Origin: a virus
Direction: 5' to 3' (one strand)
DNA length: 64,000 nucleotides
Virus record (IMG/VR): IMGVR_UViG_3300021373_002342
Location: 1-64,000 of that record
Both the position numbers and the translations under genes were made by a program. Below the pieces are notes generated by a model. That model ran no database searches and had not been told where the DNA came from. It saw nothing but the letters and a program-made list of their open reading frames with translations. This document shows, piece by piece, positions 35,148 through 64,000 of this stretch (positions within the stretch are counted from its first letter, which is position 1; each line of letters opens with the position of its first letter).

Positions 35148-35224
35148 TGGCGCGGCTGAAGAGATTCGAACTCCTGACCCTTGGTTTCGTAGACCAATGC
35201 TCTATCCAGCTGAGCTACAGCCGC
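35148..35224 (-). tRNA. tRNA-Arg (anticodon ACG)
   Basis: 77-nt cloverleaf with acceptor GCGGCTG/CAGCCGC, anticodon stem TTGGT/ACCAA around loop CTACGAA, T-arm GGTTCGAATC-type loop, and encoded CCA. Reads CGU, and CGC/CGA after inosine conversion. Confidence 0.97.
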
Positions 35225-35234
35225 GTAAAATAAT

Positions 35235-35263
35235 ATTATAGTTGACTTTCATCTAAATGTCAA
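35235..35263 (-). promoter_or_regulatory. Sigma70 promoter immediately upstream of tRNA-Arg
   Basis: TTGACA, 17-nt spacer, TATAAT on the minus strand, 11 nt before the tRNA-Arg 5' end. The spacer contains an inverted copy of the -35 region (TTGAC...GTCAA), a possible operator. Confidence 0.8.
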
Positions 35264-35266
35264 CCA

Positions 35267-35340
35267 TGGAGTGAGAGGTGAGAATCGAACTCACATACAA
35301 GGATTTGCAATCCTCTGCGTAACCATTCCGCCACTCTCAC
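35267..35340 (-). tRNA. tRNA-Cys (anticodon GCA)
   Basis: 74-nt cloverleaf with acceptor GTGAGAG/CTCTCAC, anticodon loop TTGCAAA and encoded CCA. Confidence 0.97.
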
Positions 35341-35345
35341 ATAAT

Positions 35346-35422
35346 TGGTCGGGGATGCAGGATTCGAACCTGCGACCTCTCGCTCCCAAAGCGAGCGCAC
35401 TACCAGACTGTGCTAATCCCCG
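35346..35422 (-). tRNA. tRNA-Pro (anticodon TGG)
   Basis: 77-nt cloverleaf with acceptor CGGGGAT/ATCCCCG, anticodon stem CTCGC/GCGAG around TTTGGGA, and encoded CCA. It directly abuts tRNA-Trp. Confidence 0.97.
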
Positions 35423-35496
35423 TGGCATAGGTGGAGGGAGTCGAACCCCCGCTTGCAGTTTTGGAGACTGCCGTGCTACCATAACACTTCACCCAT
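35423..35496 (-). tRNA. tRNA-Trp (anticodon CCA)
   Basis: 74-nt cloverleaf with acceptor ATGGGTG/CACCTAT (one G-U pair), anticodon stem GCAGT/ACTGC around CTCCAAA, and encoded CCA. Its first base follows the U-run of the upstream terminator with no gap. Confidence 0.95.
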
Positions 35497-35528
35497 AAAA
35501 AAAGCCCCTTGCTTTCGCTTGGGGCTTT
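35497..35528 (-). terminator. Intrinsic terminator (attenuator) directly before tRNA-Trp
   Basis: Minus strand AAAGCCCC, a loop containing GCGAAAGC, then GGGGCTTT ending in a run of seven U. The 8-bp GC-rich stem plus U-run is a canonical intrinsic terminator. Its 5' arm (35521-35527) can alternatively pair with GGGGCTT at 35563-35557 in the leader. Confidence 0.85.
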
Positions 35529-35549
35529 CTCACGTACTCAAATATCACG

Positions 35550-35612
35550 TCAAGACAAGCCCCTACCTCTTGGCGGGCACCAACGAAAATTTGTTGTAAC
35601 TGTCTTGAACAT
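35550..35612 (-). CDS. Candidate leader peptide (20 aa) with Arg-Trp-Cys-Pro-Pro codons
   Basis: ATG 35612 is preceded by AGGA at a 7-nt spacing and opens a 20-codon frame ending in TGA at 35550. Codons 10-14 are CGT TGG TGC CCG CCA (RWCPP). These are exactly the codons read by tRNA-Arg(ACG), Trp, Cys and Pro(TGG) encoded just downstream. Codons 11-14 overlap region 1 of an RNA hairpin (35578-35572 with 35567-35559). Stalling there would free region 2 (35563-35557) to pair with the terminator's 5' arm. Finishing translation would place the ribosome over region 2 and allow termination. The peptide itself probably has no function. The mechanism is inferred from sequence only. Confidence 0.72.
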   Translation of the reverse strand: MFKTVTTNFRWCPPRGRGLS

Positions 35613-35641
35613 GTAAGTATCCTTTTGTTTAGTATGTTACT

Positions 35642-35670
35642 ACTATAGTATCAGTATTTAGCTTTGTCAA
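35642..35670 (-). promoter_or_regulatory. Sigma70 promoter of the attenuated tRNA operon
   Basis: TTGACA, 17-nt spacer, TATAGT on the minus strand. Predicted start near 35635. The spacer also contains a TAAATA element. Confidence 0.8.
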
Positions 35671-38338: not shown

Positions 38339-38499
38339 AGTTCTTCTAAAATGCCTAGTACTTCAGCGGCTGCAAAAAAGATTACAAACCAACCAATTGC
38401 GTTAGTAGCAAAGGCTGCGCCGCAACCTGCTAGTCGAAGGCCGCTTTTAGCCATGCTCATATAAAAATGCTTTTTGCTTACGTCTACTGGTTCTACCAT
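38335..38499 (-). CDS. Small membrane protein (54 aa)
   Basis: ATG 38499 overlaps the clpP stop (TAATG). One hydrophobic helix (NAIGWFVIFFAAAEVLGIL) follows a Gly/Ala-rich amphipathic segment (SGLRLAGCGAAFA). Tight coupling to clpP could mean a membrane partner of the protease, but this is only context. Confidence 0.7.
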   Translation of the reverse strand: MVEPVDVSKKHFYMSMAKSGLRLAGCGAAFATNAIGWFVIFFAAAEVLGILEEL

Positions 38500-39116
38500 T
38501 ATCTATTCTCCACTACTTTATCAGCAAAGCCGTTTTCTACTGCTTCGTCTGCTGTTAGGAATGTATCAAACTTCATTGTTTCAAACAATTCCTCATATGT
38601 TTTGCCTGCAGAGTTGTGTTTTACATATAGCTCTGTCAGACGCTTGTTAACTTTCTGTGACTCTTCGTAGTGACGTTTGATATCTTCCATTTGCAGTTCT
38701 TGAATATGAACACTACCGCTTGTACCAGGAGTGCCTGAACTTACACGGTGAATCATTGTACGGCTTTCAGGTAATACAACTCGTTTACCTTCTGTACCTG
38801 CTTGTGCTAAGAAACTGCCCATTGAACATGCTTGACCCATTACAATAGTGCGTACATCACATTTAATAAACTGCATGGTATCATAAATTGCTAGTCCTGC
38901 TGTTACAGCACCGCCTGGTGAATTAATATACAAATTAATATCTTTATCAGGGTTTTCACTTTCTAAAAATAACATTTGTGCTACAATTAGATTTGCCATA
39001 TTATCCTCAACAGGACCATTTAGCATAATAATACGATCTTTCAGCAATCGACTGTAAATATCGTATGAACGTTCTCCTCGAGCTTCTTGCTCAACTACCA
39101 TAGGTATAAGTGGCAT
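38499..39116 (-). CDS. clpP: ClpP serine protease subunit (205 aa)
   Basis: ClpP forms the barrel protease of Clp machines. The nucleophile Ser98 is in GQACSMGSF, the His123 in [10 protein letters not shown], and the Asp184 in [30 protein letters not shown] forms the oxyanion and handle region. The spacing from His to Asp is longer than in E. coli ClpP. No Clp ATPase is seen in the window, but a ClpS adaptor is at 61.5 kb, so it probably works with host ClpA/ClpX. An intragenic sigma70 promoter lies 175-200 nt upstream. Confidence 0.95.
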
Positions 39117-51666: not shown

Positions 51667-51831
51667 ATGTTTAAATCTAAATGGGATATATGGTTAGAAA
51701 ACCAAAACGAAGCTACTAGAGTTTATCTAAAAAATCAAATGAAAGAAGATGATAAACTTATTTGGCTCGGTTTTGGTTTAGGCATACCTGTAGGATTATT
51801 ACTAGCAGTTATTATTTACTCTGCGCTATAA
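51667..51831 (+). CDS. Small membrane protein (54 aa)
   Basis: ATG 51667 directly follows the previous stop. MFKSKWDIWLENQNEATRVY precedes a C-terminal helix (LIWLGFGLGIPVGLLLAVII). The 3' end overlaps the convergent cyclase by 20 nt. Possibly part of a lysis or membrane module. Confidence 0.7.
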   Translation: MFKSKWDIWLENQNEATRVYLKNQMKEDDKLIWLGFGLGIPVGLLLAVIIYSAL

Positions 51832-53851
51832 ACACACCGTTCCAATCTTTAGGTAACTTTTGCGTTTTCTGGAACTCACAGCGTTCAATCCACATTTTAT
51901 AATAACCTTCCATTTTTCCATCAAAATGCCGCATAAGTTTATTACATTCTGTAATTGCTTGATCAAACTTTTGTGCTCTATAACAATCGTGCATACGTTC
52001 GTGTATTTCTTTGCTTTTTAGTTGTGCAGGTGTTCCAGCAATATCTAATACTGTATAAATGCTTAGTCCAACACTTTTACCTTTAACTTGTAGATCATCT
52101 ACTTTTAAGTAGAAGAAGTCATTTTTAGTTTCTTTGTAGGTTGATTCTCCGACAAGGAGTAAGCATCCGTATTCTTTACACTTTGACTCAATTCTTGCTG
52201 CTGTGGAAACAGCGTCTCCCAAAACGTCATATGAGTGTCTTTTTGTTGAGCCCATTTCACCAAGATATCCAAGGCCTGTGTTGATACCGGCTCCCATTCC
52301 AACTGGCGGCCTTCCTTCTGCTGTAATTTTGTCATTAAACTTCTCCACTGCTCGCAACATTTCTAGCCCACATTGTACTGCTGTTTTAGGATGATCTGGA
52401 TCTTCTATAGGTGCATTATGTATATGCATACTTGCATCGCCTATGTATTTGATAATCATTCCGTCCATATCAAGTACAGGCTGTGTGATAGCATCCATAT
52501 ATCCATTCATGATTTTTGTTAGTCCTTTAACATCGTCGCCAAAACTTTCACCTAATGGTGTAAAGCCACGCAAGTCTGAGAATAAAATACTAACTTCTCG
52601 TTTCATACCTTCTTTAATAAGTGCAGGATTTTCTTGTAATAGTCTTACTACAGTAGGTGATGCATAACCTGCAAACTGTTTCTTTATCGCTTGTTTTTCA
52701 AGGAACTCACGAACAAACTTAATTCCGTATACTTGTAATGCAATAATAACCAAAGTAATGATAGGTGCTGTAACATCAATTAACGCCTTTTCTGTTGCAA
52801 ACATATGCCATGAGTAAGGTAGTACTCCACTAATTAATCCTACTGTAACTACTAGTCCTACTAGCATCCATCGACTGAGTAAAATCAATAATAAACCACC
52901 TATAGCAAGCCCTACAAGCTCTGCTGTTGGCGCCCAGTCAGGTCGTTGTATATTTGTACCGTTAAACATTGTACCTATTACTGCGGCTTGGGTAGTACCT
53001 GCAAACTGTGCGCCTGTTGCTGTAGGAACAGGATTAGCAATACCTGCTGCTGTTACATCTACAATAACAACTGCTCCGCCAAAATCACTAGGCAAGTCTG
53101 CTACACTTACACGTTTTGATTGTTGACTCCAGTCAATCCACACACGCCCTTCTGAATCAGTAGGTATAGGACCAAACTGAGGTATACGCATTTTTTCTAC
53201 GCCAAACTGATTTAACTTAATTTGAAAGTTTGGATCGCCTGCTATAACACGCAGTGTTTCTAATGCTAAACTAGGATATAATGTGCCGTCAACTACTGCT
53301 ACAGTTGGCATACGTCTTACTACACCGTCAATTTCGGGCTCTGTACTTACAATACCTGCTCCAACACTGCTGTTTTCTAGTATAGGAATATTAGCAATAA
53401 TGCCACCATATGGAAGTATACGATCTAAGTATTGAGGTTGTAGAATTGCTGCTCCAGGATTAATAGGCAAGTTAACAGTTTTATCGCTAGGACGACTTGC
53501 TAGTATTACAGGCAATGCCATCATAGTTTCTGCTAATTCTGTATCACCTCCAAAGCGATCTTTTTCAGGCATCATTACGTTCCATATAACTATACCTGCT
53601 CCTCTGTTATATAGATCTTTTATAATGTCTGAATATATGTTTCTAGGAAAAGGATACTGTCCATAACGTTCTAATGCAGCGTCATCTATTTCTGCTACAT
53701 AGATATTGTTTTCTACAGGTTCCTGATTTACAATAAGTTGATCAAAATAATTTAATTTAACACTTTGGAAAAAAGCAGGCGGTGTCATAAACAAATATAT
53801 TAGAGCAGATAGTGTTAATAATGCCCACCACGGACTTAGTAATTTTTTCAT
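51812..53851 (-). CDS. CHASE2-domain class III adenylate/guanylate cyclase (679 aa)
   Basis: Architecture: N-terminal TM (residues about 8-25), a CHASE2 sensor outside the membrane (about 30-310), two or three TMs (about 315-400), then a class III cyclase domain (about 415-600). The metal aspartates are in SILFSDLRGFT and KYIGDASMHIH. The adenine-selecting Lys (IIKYIGD) and Asp (SYDVLGD) are present, suggesting ATP as substrate. The transition-state Arg is kept (AARIES), but the usual Asn four residues before it is Ser (AVSTAAR). A phage-encoded membrane cyclase is very unusual. It is downstream of the FecR/curli-type genes. Confidence 0.92.
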   Translation of the reverse strand: MKKLLSPWWALLTLSALIYLFMTPPAFFQSVKLNYFDQLIVNQEPVENNIYVAEIDDAALERYGQYPFPRNIYSDIIKDLYNRGAGIVIWNVMMPEKDRFGGDTELAETMMALPVILASRPSDKTVNLPINPGAAILQPQYLDRILPYGGIIANIPILENSSVGAGIVSTEPEIDGVVRRMPTVAVVDGTLYPSLALETLRVIAGDPNFQIKLNQFGVEKMRIPQFGPIPTDSEGRVWIDWSQQSKRVSVADLPSDFGGAVVIVDVTAAGIANPVPTATGAQFAGTTQAAVIGTMFNGTNIQRPDWAPTAELVGLAIGGLLLILLSRWMLVGLVVTVGLISGVLPYSWHMFATEKALIDVTAPIITLVIIALQVYGIKFVREFLEKQAIKKQFAGYASPTVVRLLQENPALIKEGMKREVSILFSDLRGFTPLGESFGDDVKGLTKIMNGYMDAITQPVLDMDGMIIKYIGDASMHIHNAPIEDPDHPKTAVQCGLEMLRAVEKFNDKITAEGRPPVGMGAGINTGLGYLGEMGSTKRHSYDVLGDAVSTAARIESKCKEYGCLLLVGESTYKETKNDFFYLKVDDLQVKGKSVGLSIYTVLDIAGTPAQLKSKEIHERMHDCYRAQKFDQAITECNKLMRHFDGKMEGYYKMWIERCEFQKTQKLPKDWNGVFIAQSK

Positions 53852-62358: not shown

Positions 62359-64000
62359 TTAAGATGCTTCGTCAAACTCTGCATCAATTATATCCTCAGC
62401 TTCAATTGGACCTTCGTCTGTTGCTGCTGAAGAATCTTTTTGCTGTTTAGCCGCCATTACTGCGCCGGCTGCGGTAGCAAACTCCGTGATCTTAGCGTTG
62501 ATAGCATCTGTATCATCGCCTTTAACTGCTTCTTCTAATGCATCACGTGCTTCAGTATAAGCAGTAACTTGTTCTTCTGTTAAGTCTGCTTGCACTTCTT
62601 CAAAGTCACGGTTGGCTTGAGCAATGTGTTGCTCTGCACCATTACGTGCTTCAACAAGGGCTCTACGCTTCTTGTCTTCTTCTGCATTAGCTTCTGCATC
62701 TTTCACCATTTGTTCAATTTCAGACTCAGACAAGCCGCCGTCACTTTGAATAGTTAACTTTTGTTCTTTGCCTGTGCCTTTGTCTGTAGCACTTACACTT
62801 AGAATACCGTTTGCATCAATATCAAATTTTACTTCAATTTGAGGAATACCACGCATTGCTGGTGCAATACCTTCTAAGTTAAACATGCCAAGATGTTTGT
62901 TATCTCTGATAAACTCACGCTCACCTTGTGCTACATTAATTGTAACTGCTGGTTGGTTGTCTTCTGCTGTTGAGAAAACTTGTGACTTTGATGTAGGAAT
63001 AGTTGTATTCTTATCAATCAATTTAGTCATAATGCCACCCATTGTTTCAATACCTAGTGACAATGGAGTAACGTCTAATAATAGTACGTCCTGCTTGTCG
63101 CCTGCTAGTACTGCACCCTGGATCGCTGCACCTGCTGCAACTGCTTCATCTGGATTTACATCCTTGCGTGGAGCCTTACCAAAGTATTTTTCAACAGCCG
63201 TTTGTACTGCTGGCATACGTGTTTGGCCACCTACAAGAATAACTTCGTCAATGTCACTTGGCTTTAGTCCTGCATCTTTAACTGCAACTTTACATGGCTC
63301 AATTGAACGTGCAACAAGGTCATTCACCATTGCTTCGTACTTTGAACGTGTAAGGTTAATAGCCATATGCTTAGGACCACTAGCATCAGCAGTCACATAC
63401 GGAAGGTTAATTTCAGTTTGTTCTGTGCTTGATAGTTCTACTTTTGCCTTTTCTGCCGCTTCCTTCAAACGCTGAAGAGCCATTTTATCTGTCGATAGAT
63501 CAACAGCATCTGACTTTTTAAATTCTGCAATCAAATAGTCAATAATTGCTTGGTCAAAATCTTCACCGCCTAAGAATGTGTCGCCGTTTGTAGCAAGAAC
63601 TTCAAACTGCTTTTCACCGTCAACATCTGATATTTCAATAATTGAGATATCAAAAGTACCACCACCTAAGTCGTATACTGCAATCTTCTTATCACCTTTG
63701 CCGCCTTTATCAACACCATATGCTAGTGCTGCTGCCGTTGGCTCGTTGATAATACGTAGGACTTCAAGACCTGCAATCTTACCAGCGTCTTTAGTTGCTT
63801 GACGTTGCGAGTCGTTAAAGTATGCAGGAACTGTAATAACTGCTTGTGTTACAGGCTCACTTAGATATGCTTCTGCATCTTGTTTAATTTTGCGTAGGAT
63901 TTCTGCACTAATTTGCTGTGGTGCATACTTTTCTTCACCTACTTGTACCCATGCATCTTTGTTGTCTGCTTCGACAATTTTAAAGGGCATGTTTTTGATA
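62359..64000 (-). CDS. dnaK: DnaK/Hsp70 chaperone, N-terminus beyond window (547 aa visible)
   Basis: The visible part begins near residue 115 of DnaK ([17 protein letters not shown]). It contains the ATPase motifs [51 protein letters not shown] and [13 protein letters not shown], the interdomain linker [20 protein letters not shown], the substrate domain, and an acidic tail ([14 protein letters not shown]). It is very close to bacterial DnaK, suggesting host acquisition. No DnaJ or GrpE is seen in the window. A functional Hsp70 in a phage probably assists folding of the giant virion proteins. Confidence 0.96.

Follow-up and report, generated by a model that had tools for sequence, protein, structure and literature searches.

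Why does an intrinsic terminator stand directly before the first gene of a phage tRNA operon, at the end of a leader that also carries a reading frame of only 20 codons? The DNA analysed here, called the window (64,000 nucleotides), was taken from an uncultured virus record of 92,205 bases. Its CHASE2-adenylate cyclase (51812-53851) shares 52% identity with that of Methylophilales phage Melnitz and 34% with that of pelagiphage HTVC008M, and FecR, Hsp70 (62359-63990) and Clp protease (38499-39116) are also phage-borne. These proteins indicate that the window phage is a relative of the marine T4-like phages Melnitz and HTVC008M. Its eight tRNA genes form two clusters, both on the minus strand, and the leader precedes the second of them:

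37031-36551, minus strand: upstream tRNA cluster Asn-Ser-Thr-Ala
35642-35670, minus strand: sigma70-type promoter (TTGACA-17-TATAGT, 11/12), predicted to drive the leader and the tRNA operon
35497-35635, minus strand: leader RNA of about 139 nt, predicted from sequence and folding, with the intrinsic terminator at its end
35620-35623, minus strand: Shine-Dalgarno (SD) sequence AGGA of the leader ORF
35602-35613, minus strand: region 1, the start-codon segment CATGTTCAAGAC, which pairs with region 2
35550-35612, minus strand: leader ORF of 20 codons, MFKTVTTNFRWCPPRGRGLS followed by the stop
35571-35585, minus strand: codons CGT TGG TGC CCG CCA
35582-35574, minus strand: sensing codons TGG, TGC and CCG, as modelled from stalling and comparison
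35546-35563, minus strand: region 2, GGGGCTTGTCTTGACGTG, running from the last ORF codons through the stop codon to the 4 nt after it
35563-35557, minus strand: GGGGCTT within region 2
35521-35531, minus strand: region 3, GAGAAAGCCCC, which serves the terminator as 5′ arm and the antiterminator as 3′ arm
35527-35521, minus strand: terminator 5′ arm
35497-35508, minus strand: region 4, the GGGGCTT 3′ arm (35508-35502) and the terminator U-run
35496-35148, minus strand: second tRNA cluster Trp-Pro-Cys-Arg, with the leader directly before it
35423-35496, minus strand: tRNA-Trp(CCA), the first gene, abutting the U-run
35346-35422, minus strand: tRNA-Pro(UGG)
35267-35340, minus strand: tRNA-Cys(GCA)
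35235-35263, minus strand: second promoter (consensus 12/12), directly 5′ of tRNA-Arg and not behind the attenuator
35148-35224, minus strand: tRNA-Arg(ACG), the last gene of the cluster

The first-pass annotation had read this locus as a trp-type attenuator governing the tRNA operon. The parts that it listed (promoter, SD, ORF, codons, GGGGCTT, terminator and the Trp-Pro-Cys-Arg genes) are all present on the minus strand where it had placed them, and the U-run, which ends at 35497, indeed touches the first base of tRNA-Trp at 35496. The proposed control of all four tRNAs needs a qualification for Arg: the 12/12 promoter before tRNA-Arg gives that gene a source of transcription outside the attenuator. 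The leader as a whole folds at -47.3 kcal/mol, better than 200 of 200 shuffled sequences (z -5.0). Region 2 has alternative partners, region 1 or region 3. The antiterminator, GGGGCTT(G)TCTT with GAGAAAGCCCC plus a nested stem, reaches -18.3 kcal/mol (z -3.7). The GGGGCTT/AAGCCCC pairing proposed for it is thus real, but it extends beyond the 7 bp first given: past a one-base bulge, TCTT (35555-35552) forms further pairs with GAGA (35531-35528). Similarly, the hairpin between region 2 and the sensing codons exists only as the inner part of a larger structure; the main 1:2 stem joins the start-codon region (35613-35602, CATGTTCAAGAC) to the stop-codon region (35556-35546, GTCTTGACGTG, which spans the stop codon).

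We consider it very likely that the leader is a ribosome-mediated transcription attenuator which senses the supply of the operon-encoded tRNAs and controls the phage tRNA operon. This rests on anatomy, conservation, covariation and codon-tRNA co-evolution, all read from sequence; the regulation itself is inferred, there being no expression data. RNA polymerase would transcribe the leader with its short ORF. With plentiful aminoacyl-tRNAs, the ribosome would reach the stop codon and cover region 2, the 3:4 terminator would form and the tRNA genes would stay mostly off. If a sensed tRNA were scarce (in the window Trp, Cys or Pro), the ribosome would stall and region 2 would be left free to form the 2:3 helix; without a terminator, the operon would then be transcribed. 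In an untranslated leader, the 1:2 stem would make termination the default. Termination with readthrough and the response to an uncharged or missing tRNA are both inferences. The leader peptide would then be an inventory of the operon's tRNAs, evolving with the operon, and the same device would serve other tRNA operons of related phages.

The first searches of viral contigs for relatives of the leader used the Clp protease close by; later ones used DNA patterns that combine region 2 with the stop codon. Together they yielded 135 loci with 74 non-identical leaders. The window layout recurs in an independent, near-identical contig (L006) and is shared by 73 further non-identical leaders, so that the window leader cannot be put down to chance. 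The common order is promoter, SD, ORF of 18-25 codons, stop, terminator and tRNA-Trp; a sigma70 promoter element and an AAGGA-type SD are present in most homologues, and the ORF with an in-frame TGG in the 74 non-identical leaders. It should be noted that most relatives were found with patterns or a model derived from the leader family itself. Two of the DNA patterns omit the middle of the ORF and the tRNA, and therefore test both unconditionally. All 98 of their matches have the in-frame TGG, and tRNA-Trp follows as 96 ARAGORN calls, one contig ending inside tRNA-Trp and one gene called by eye that ARAGORN missed. The peptide around the TGG varies (CWPP, RWCPEQ, YWCPP, DWCQP, GWPSRK, CIRWFSEG etc.). 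Accordingly, RWCPP is not conserved as a string, and of its codons only the TGG is invariant. The view of Arg, Trp, Cys and Pro as sensors of equal rank was dropped: Trp is invariant and the neighbouring codons follow the operon. Trp alone is, as judged from the comparison, the invariant putative sensor of the window's leader family.

Other searches returned little. The peptide-derived pattern FRWCPPRG matched one near-identical contig and, by chance, GC-rich genes, and the downstream gene used as bait gave only one locus. Against cultured phages, blastn with the leader and tRNA region returned mostly tRNA matches and blastn with one relative's leader returned none. Likewise, three leader peptides gave nothing credible in 50,697 phage records at the sensitivity of tblastn, a scan of bacterial genomes with one leader pattern and a scan of Hsp70-bearing contigs with the covariance model were both empty, and no Rfam family matched the leader at threshold (cmscan).

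The annotation had suggested covariation of the three stems as a check. Both 1:2 and 3:4 co-vary in the homologous leaders. In the terminator (3:4), both-sided pair changes occur at 5 of 11 positions. In the 1:2 stem, a base after the stop codon is the partner of the start codon's first base, and the pair is A-U in 32 leaders and G-C in 14, with no exceptions; leaving out the RWFSEG type, GTG leaders all stop with TAA and ATG leaders all with TGA. This stem is strong and co-varying in the WC and WP families, is present in the minimum free energy (MFE) structure of the window leader, and is weak in RWFSEG-type leaders. For the 2:3 pairing, kept in 96% of cells, the support is of another kind: the main family shows little variation in it, and its two sides change together from one leader type to another. 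The region 2/terminator sets of these types are GGGGCTT/AAGCCCC, GGAGTGTG/CACACCCC and GGAGGG/CCCTCC. Across types, cognate 2:3 pairings average -17.7 kcal/mol, versus -12.8 kcal/mol for non-cognate ones. The terminator and antiterminator are thus mutually exclusive helices that are conserved or co-varying, the evidence for 2:3 covariation coming from differences between types.

Stalling was modelled with the RNA masked as far as 13 nt past the codon in the A site. The full-length MFE structure of the window leader is then the antiterminator only with TGG, TGC or CCG (codons 11-13) in the A site, and the terminator with any earlier or later codon, or the stop, in that position. Thus, of the proposed Arg-Trp-Cys-Pro sensing, the model supports Trp, Cys and Pro; Arg lies just outside the thermodynamic window and would be the weakest sensor. 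With an upstream codon, Arg included, in the A site, the model of the window leader permits the antiterminator until the 3′ arm has been transcribed, and at equilibrium it no longer does. Across the full set of leaders, 2:3 competence is 100% for A-site positions up to W, 61% at W+1, 38% at W+2, 3% at W+3 and nil from W+4. The predicted 2:3 window agrees with the positions at which codons follow tRNAs (see below). In nearly all relatives the terminator is the full-length MFE structure despite a stalled ribosome, and switching must therefore depend on kinetics, as it does in known attenuators. In addition, a ribosome stalled at Trp leaves region 1 uncovered, so that 1:2 could re-form unless blocked. 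Since the TGG is codon 10 to 16 of the ORF, a second, initiating ribosome could occupy region 1, although this is inferred.

Do the leader codons change with the downstream tRNA set, as the first-pass annotation had asked? They do. For example, L034 (..IIGWPS..) precedes the operon Trp-Pro-Gly-Ser-Met-Ile, L059 (..IICWPS..) precedes Trp-Pro-Cys-Ser-Ile and L008 (RWCPE) precedes Trp-Pro-Cys-Glu-Arg. L018, with MMKHIQQYCIRWF, precedes Trp-Ile-Tyr-Lys-Gln-Cys-Met-Phe, and in L261, whose operon lacks Tyr and has His, the leader reads MMKQIKQHCIRWF. In 65 distinct leader/operon combinations, a codon readable by the tRNA lies in W-6..W+3 for 142 of the 167 non-Trp tRNAs, versus a mean of 111.6 and a maximum of 123 when operons were shuffled within leader families (5000 permutations). 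Some tRNAs are never without their codon: Cys (39/39), Tyr (9/9), Phe (6/6) and the UAU tRNA (8/8). When disjoint nearest-neighbour pairs are compared, codon and tRNA changes agree 26 times and disagree twice (P=1.5e-6). Matches are enriched only at W-7..W-1 and W+2, with none from W+4 onward. As a negative control, the tRNAs of unattenuated upstream clusters match the leader codons 29 times, with 30.0 expected. Against the correspondence, some operon tRNAs (e.g. Lys, Ala) lack a leader codon and many leader codons lack an operon tRNA, such as CWPP before Trp-only operons or Pro where tRNA-Pro is absent. Codons without a matching tRNA being common, the implication runs from tRNA to codon.

An ATA codon is present in the leader for 13 of 13 WC/WP-family operons with a CAU or UAU anticodon, and six leaders have ATA without such a tRNA. 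Judged from these codons, the apparent mismatch between Met(CAU) and the leader is weakened. The UAU-anticodon (Ile, AUA) tRNA genes of L016, L034, L059, L235 and L275 have a long, class II-like variable arm, and their presence accompanies ATA codons in the leaders.

The varying peptide also bears on the possibility that the nascent chain itself, W-C-P-P-x-G-R-G, stalls the ribosome through Pro-Pro or a small molecule, codon supply being irrelevant. Such an arrest peptide would fit the WC and WP families, in which Pro-Pro and GRG[LM]S occur often. However, the TGG alone is invariant and the surrounding peptide varies freely and with the tRNA set, no peptide motif is common to the other leader types, and the PP is found no earlier than the end of the stall window and has codons that RNA pairing can account for. 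We regard this explanation as very unlikely.

The attenuator is not confined to tRNA-Trp. Running a covariance model over 50 related records revealed further leaders, and an in-house scan, for an ORF, terminator and 2:3 complementarity before tRNA clusters, revealed more. L026 (..TLGSENPGSDA..) heads the operon Asn-Ser-Glu-Asp-Thr-Leu-Gly-Pro-Ala-Gly, L299 (..AWTPGQSNPGVDL..) heads Asn-Ser-Val-Trp-Ser-Gly-Thr-Leu-Gln-Pro, a second leader of L299 (..KSIRECREYRI..) heads Cys-Met-Glu-Tyr-Lys-Lys-Ile-Arg, and L027 (..MFKQIRKHQMFCIRWYR..) heads Tyr-Ile-Trp-Arg-Cys-Gln-Met-Lys-Arg-His-Phe. In six phages with two leaders each, leaders match their own operon in 120 of 128 cases and the swapped operon in 54 of 128 (Fisher P=5e-20). 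Genome, host and codon bias do not differ in this within-genome swap; the cells are not fully independent, the six phages being relatives of one another.

These results also leave little room for a constitutive partial terminator, or a promoter/stem-loop cassette such as one with a mobile early promoter, with a non-functional ORF and a fixed low tRNA level. Phages do shuffle promoter/stem-loop cassettes, and a strong terminator stands directly 5′ of tRNA-Trp. Yet no homologue has lost the ORF, SD or TGG, start and stop codons are linked by base pairing and co-vary, and both the codon-tRNA co-evolution, with its clean negative control, and the swap test would go unexplained; we find this reading highly improbable. 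An independent gene for a small RNA or protein (the 139-nt terminated RNA or the 20-aa peptide), upstream of the tRNA operon by accident, is scarcely credible: promoter, ORF and terminator do make a complete unit, but tRNA-Trp always follows, the peptide is not conserved, region 2 is conserved as the partner of the terminator, and other leaders precede other tRNA operons. All three explanations were rejected.

Among known systems, trpL and hisL are trp-type leaders, while thrL and ilvL are leaders that serve several amino acids each. Like all four, the phage leaders are short and carry an ORF for translation, whose sensing codons lie where a stalled ribosome would leave region 2 free; they also share with trp-type leaders the mutually exclusive 1:2, 2:3 and 3:4 helices, as predicted from sequence, and the inferred sensing of several amino acids by one leader. 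The principle of ribosome-mediated attenuation is set out in PMC1183508. The testable anatomical features are met, except for the weak 1:2 stem in one leader type: a promoter, an SD-led short ORF and an intrinsic terminator lie upstream of the controlled genes, the sensing codons correspond to the operon's product, and, in the folding model, stalling exposes region 2 and completion covers it. The trp-type logic originally proposed is thus supported by the comparative tests and by folding. Unlike trp-type leaders, these are phage-borne and control tRNA genes rather than enzymes of amino-acid metabolism, what they would sense is the set of tRNAs that the operon itself encodes (1 to about 12 kinds), the two evolving together, there is usually one codon per tRNA without runs, and the main 1:2 stem joins the start- and stop-codon regions.

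In the pheM leader of E. coli pheST, a synthetase operon is attenuated; there, too, the attenuated gene supplies charged tRNA, but it encodes an enzyme and a single amino acid is involved. T-box leaders also control tRNA-related genes by tRNA charging. They bind uncharged tRNA directly and need no ORF, unlike the phage leader, which has one; cmscan against Rfam found no T-box match in the leader, so that T-box membership is not met. In phage Melnitz, a glutamine riboswitch is found on the tmRNA gene (PMC9004378). It likewise represents RNA control of a translation-support RNA gene in a related phage group, but it is a metabolite riboswitch without a leader peptide. The lone tRNA-Trp of Melnitz has no attenuator. 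Some phage tRNAs evade tRNA-cleaving defences (PMC10264068, PMC11555353); these papers concern tRNA sequence and presence, and attenuation or leader control is not treated in PMC10264068. Such a defence is a biological setting in which sensing lost tRNAs would pay.

The claim that no phage tRNA operon was known to be regulated in this way found no contradiction: we found no precedent, and no report of tRNA genes under translated-leader attenuation, in the open literature searched (subscription journals were not covered). As far as sequence can indicate, a group of marine and freshwater viruses of bacteria seems to have turned a classic bacterial switch to a new use. We rate as new the target class (tRNA genes) and the principle (leader as operon inventory); the attenuation logic was already known. 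If the interpretation is true, no tRNA genes regulated through translation of their own codons would have been known before these, and ribosome-mediated attenuation would extend from amino-acid biosynthesis to tRNA genes, in sets of about 10. The purpose of phage-carried tRNAs has been debated for more than 50 years. A leader matching its own operon implies that an infecting phage senses and corrects tRNA supply, in keeping with host shutdown and with host defences that deplete tRNAs; any benefit to the phage is inferred. The question becomes testable, because the leader names the tRNAs that the phage expects to be scarce. We think it rather probable that this is a general phage strategy, in which the large tRNA operons of this phage group are headed by a codon list, the usable level of each tRNA is monitored and only a set running short, through host degradation, anticodon nucleases or starvation, would be replaced. 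The trigger could be amino-acid starvation, host tRNA decay or a tRNA-cleaving defence, among which sequence does not discriminate. The leaders also offer a natural record of codon/tRNA-gene co-evolution, which helps to assign doubtful tRNA identities such as the AUA readers.

The surroundings of the attenuator vary among phages. Between the terminator and tRNA-Trp, eight leaders (L188, L190, L192, L207, L229, L235, L247 and L250) carry a conserved tRNA-like element of about 75 nt; it has a 9-bp acceptor-like stem ACTACACTA/TAGTGTAGT, three inner hairpins and no CCA, and it matches nothing in Rfam. Upstream of the leader, L084, L192 and L207 have no clear sigma70 promoter and instead an AT-rich, TATAAATA-like element resembling a T4 late promoter; the attenuator may therefore serve another time of infection there. 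Extra promoters follow the attenuator in some operons, before tRNA-Arg in the window and in Asn operons. In the Asn operon of L285-L287 and L289, an rrn boxA-like GTTCTTTAACAATTTAGAT accompanies extra sigma70 promoters between the attenuator and the first tRNA. Finally, in the related phages L009, L012, L019, L030, L032, L042 and L043 the promoter lies directly before tRNA-Trp with no leader, and these loci are natural unregulated counterparts.
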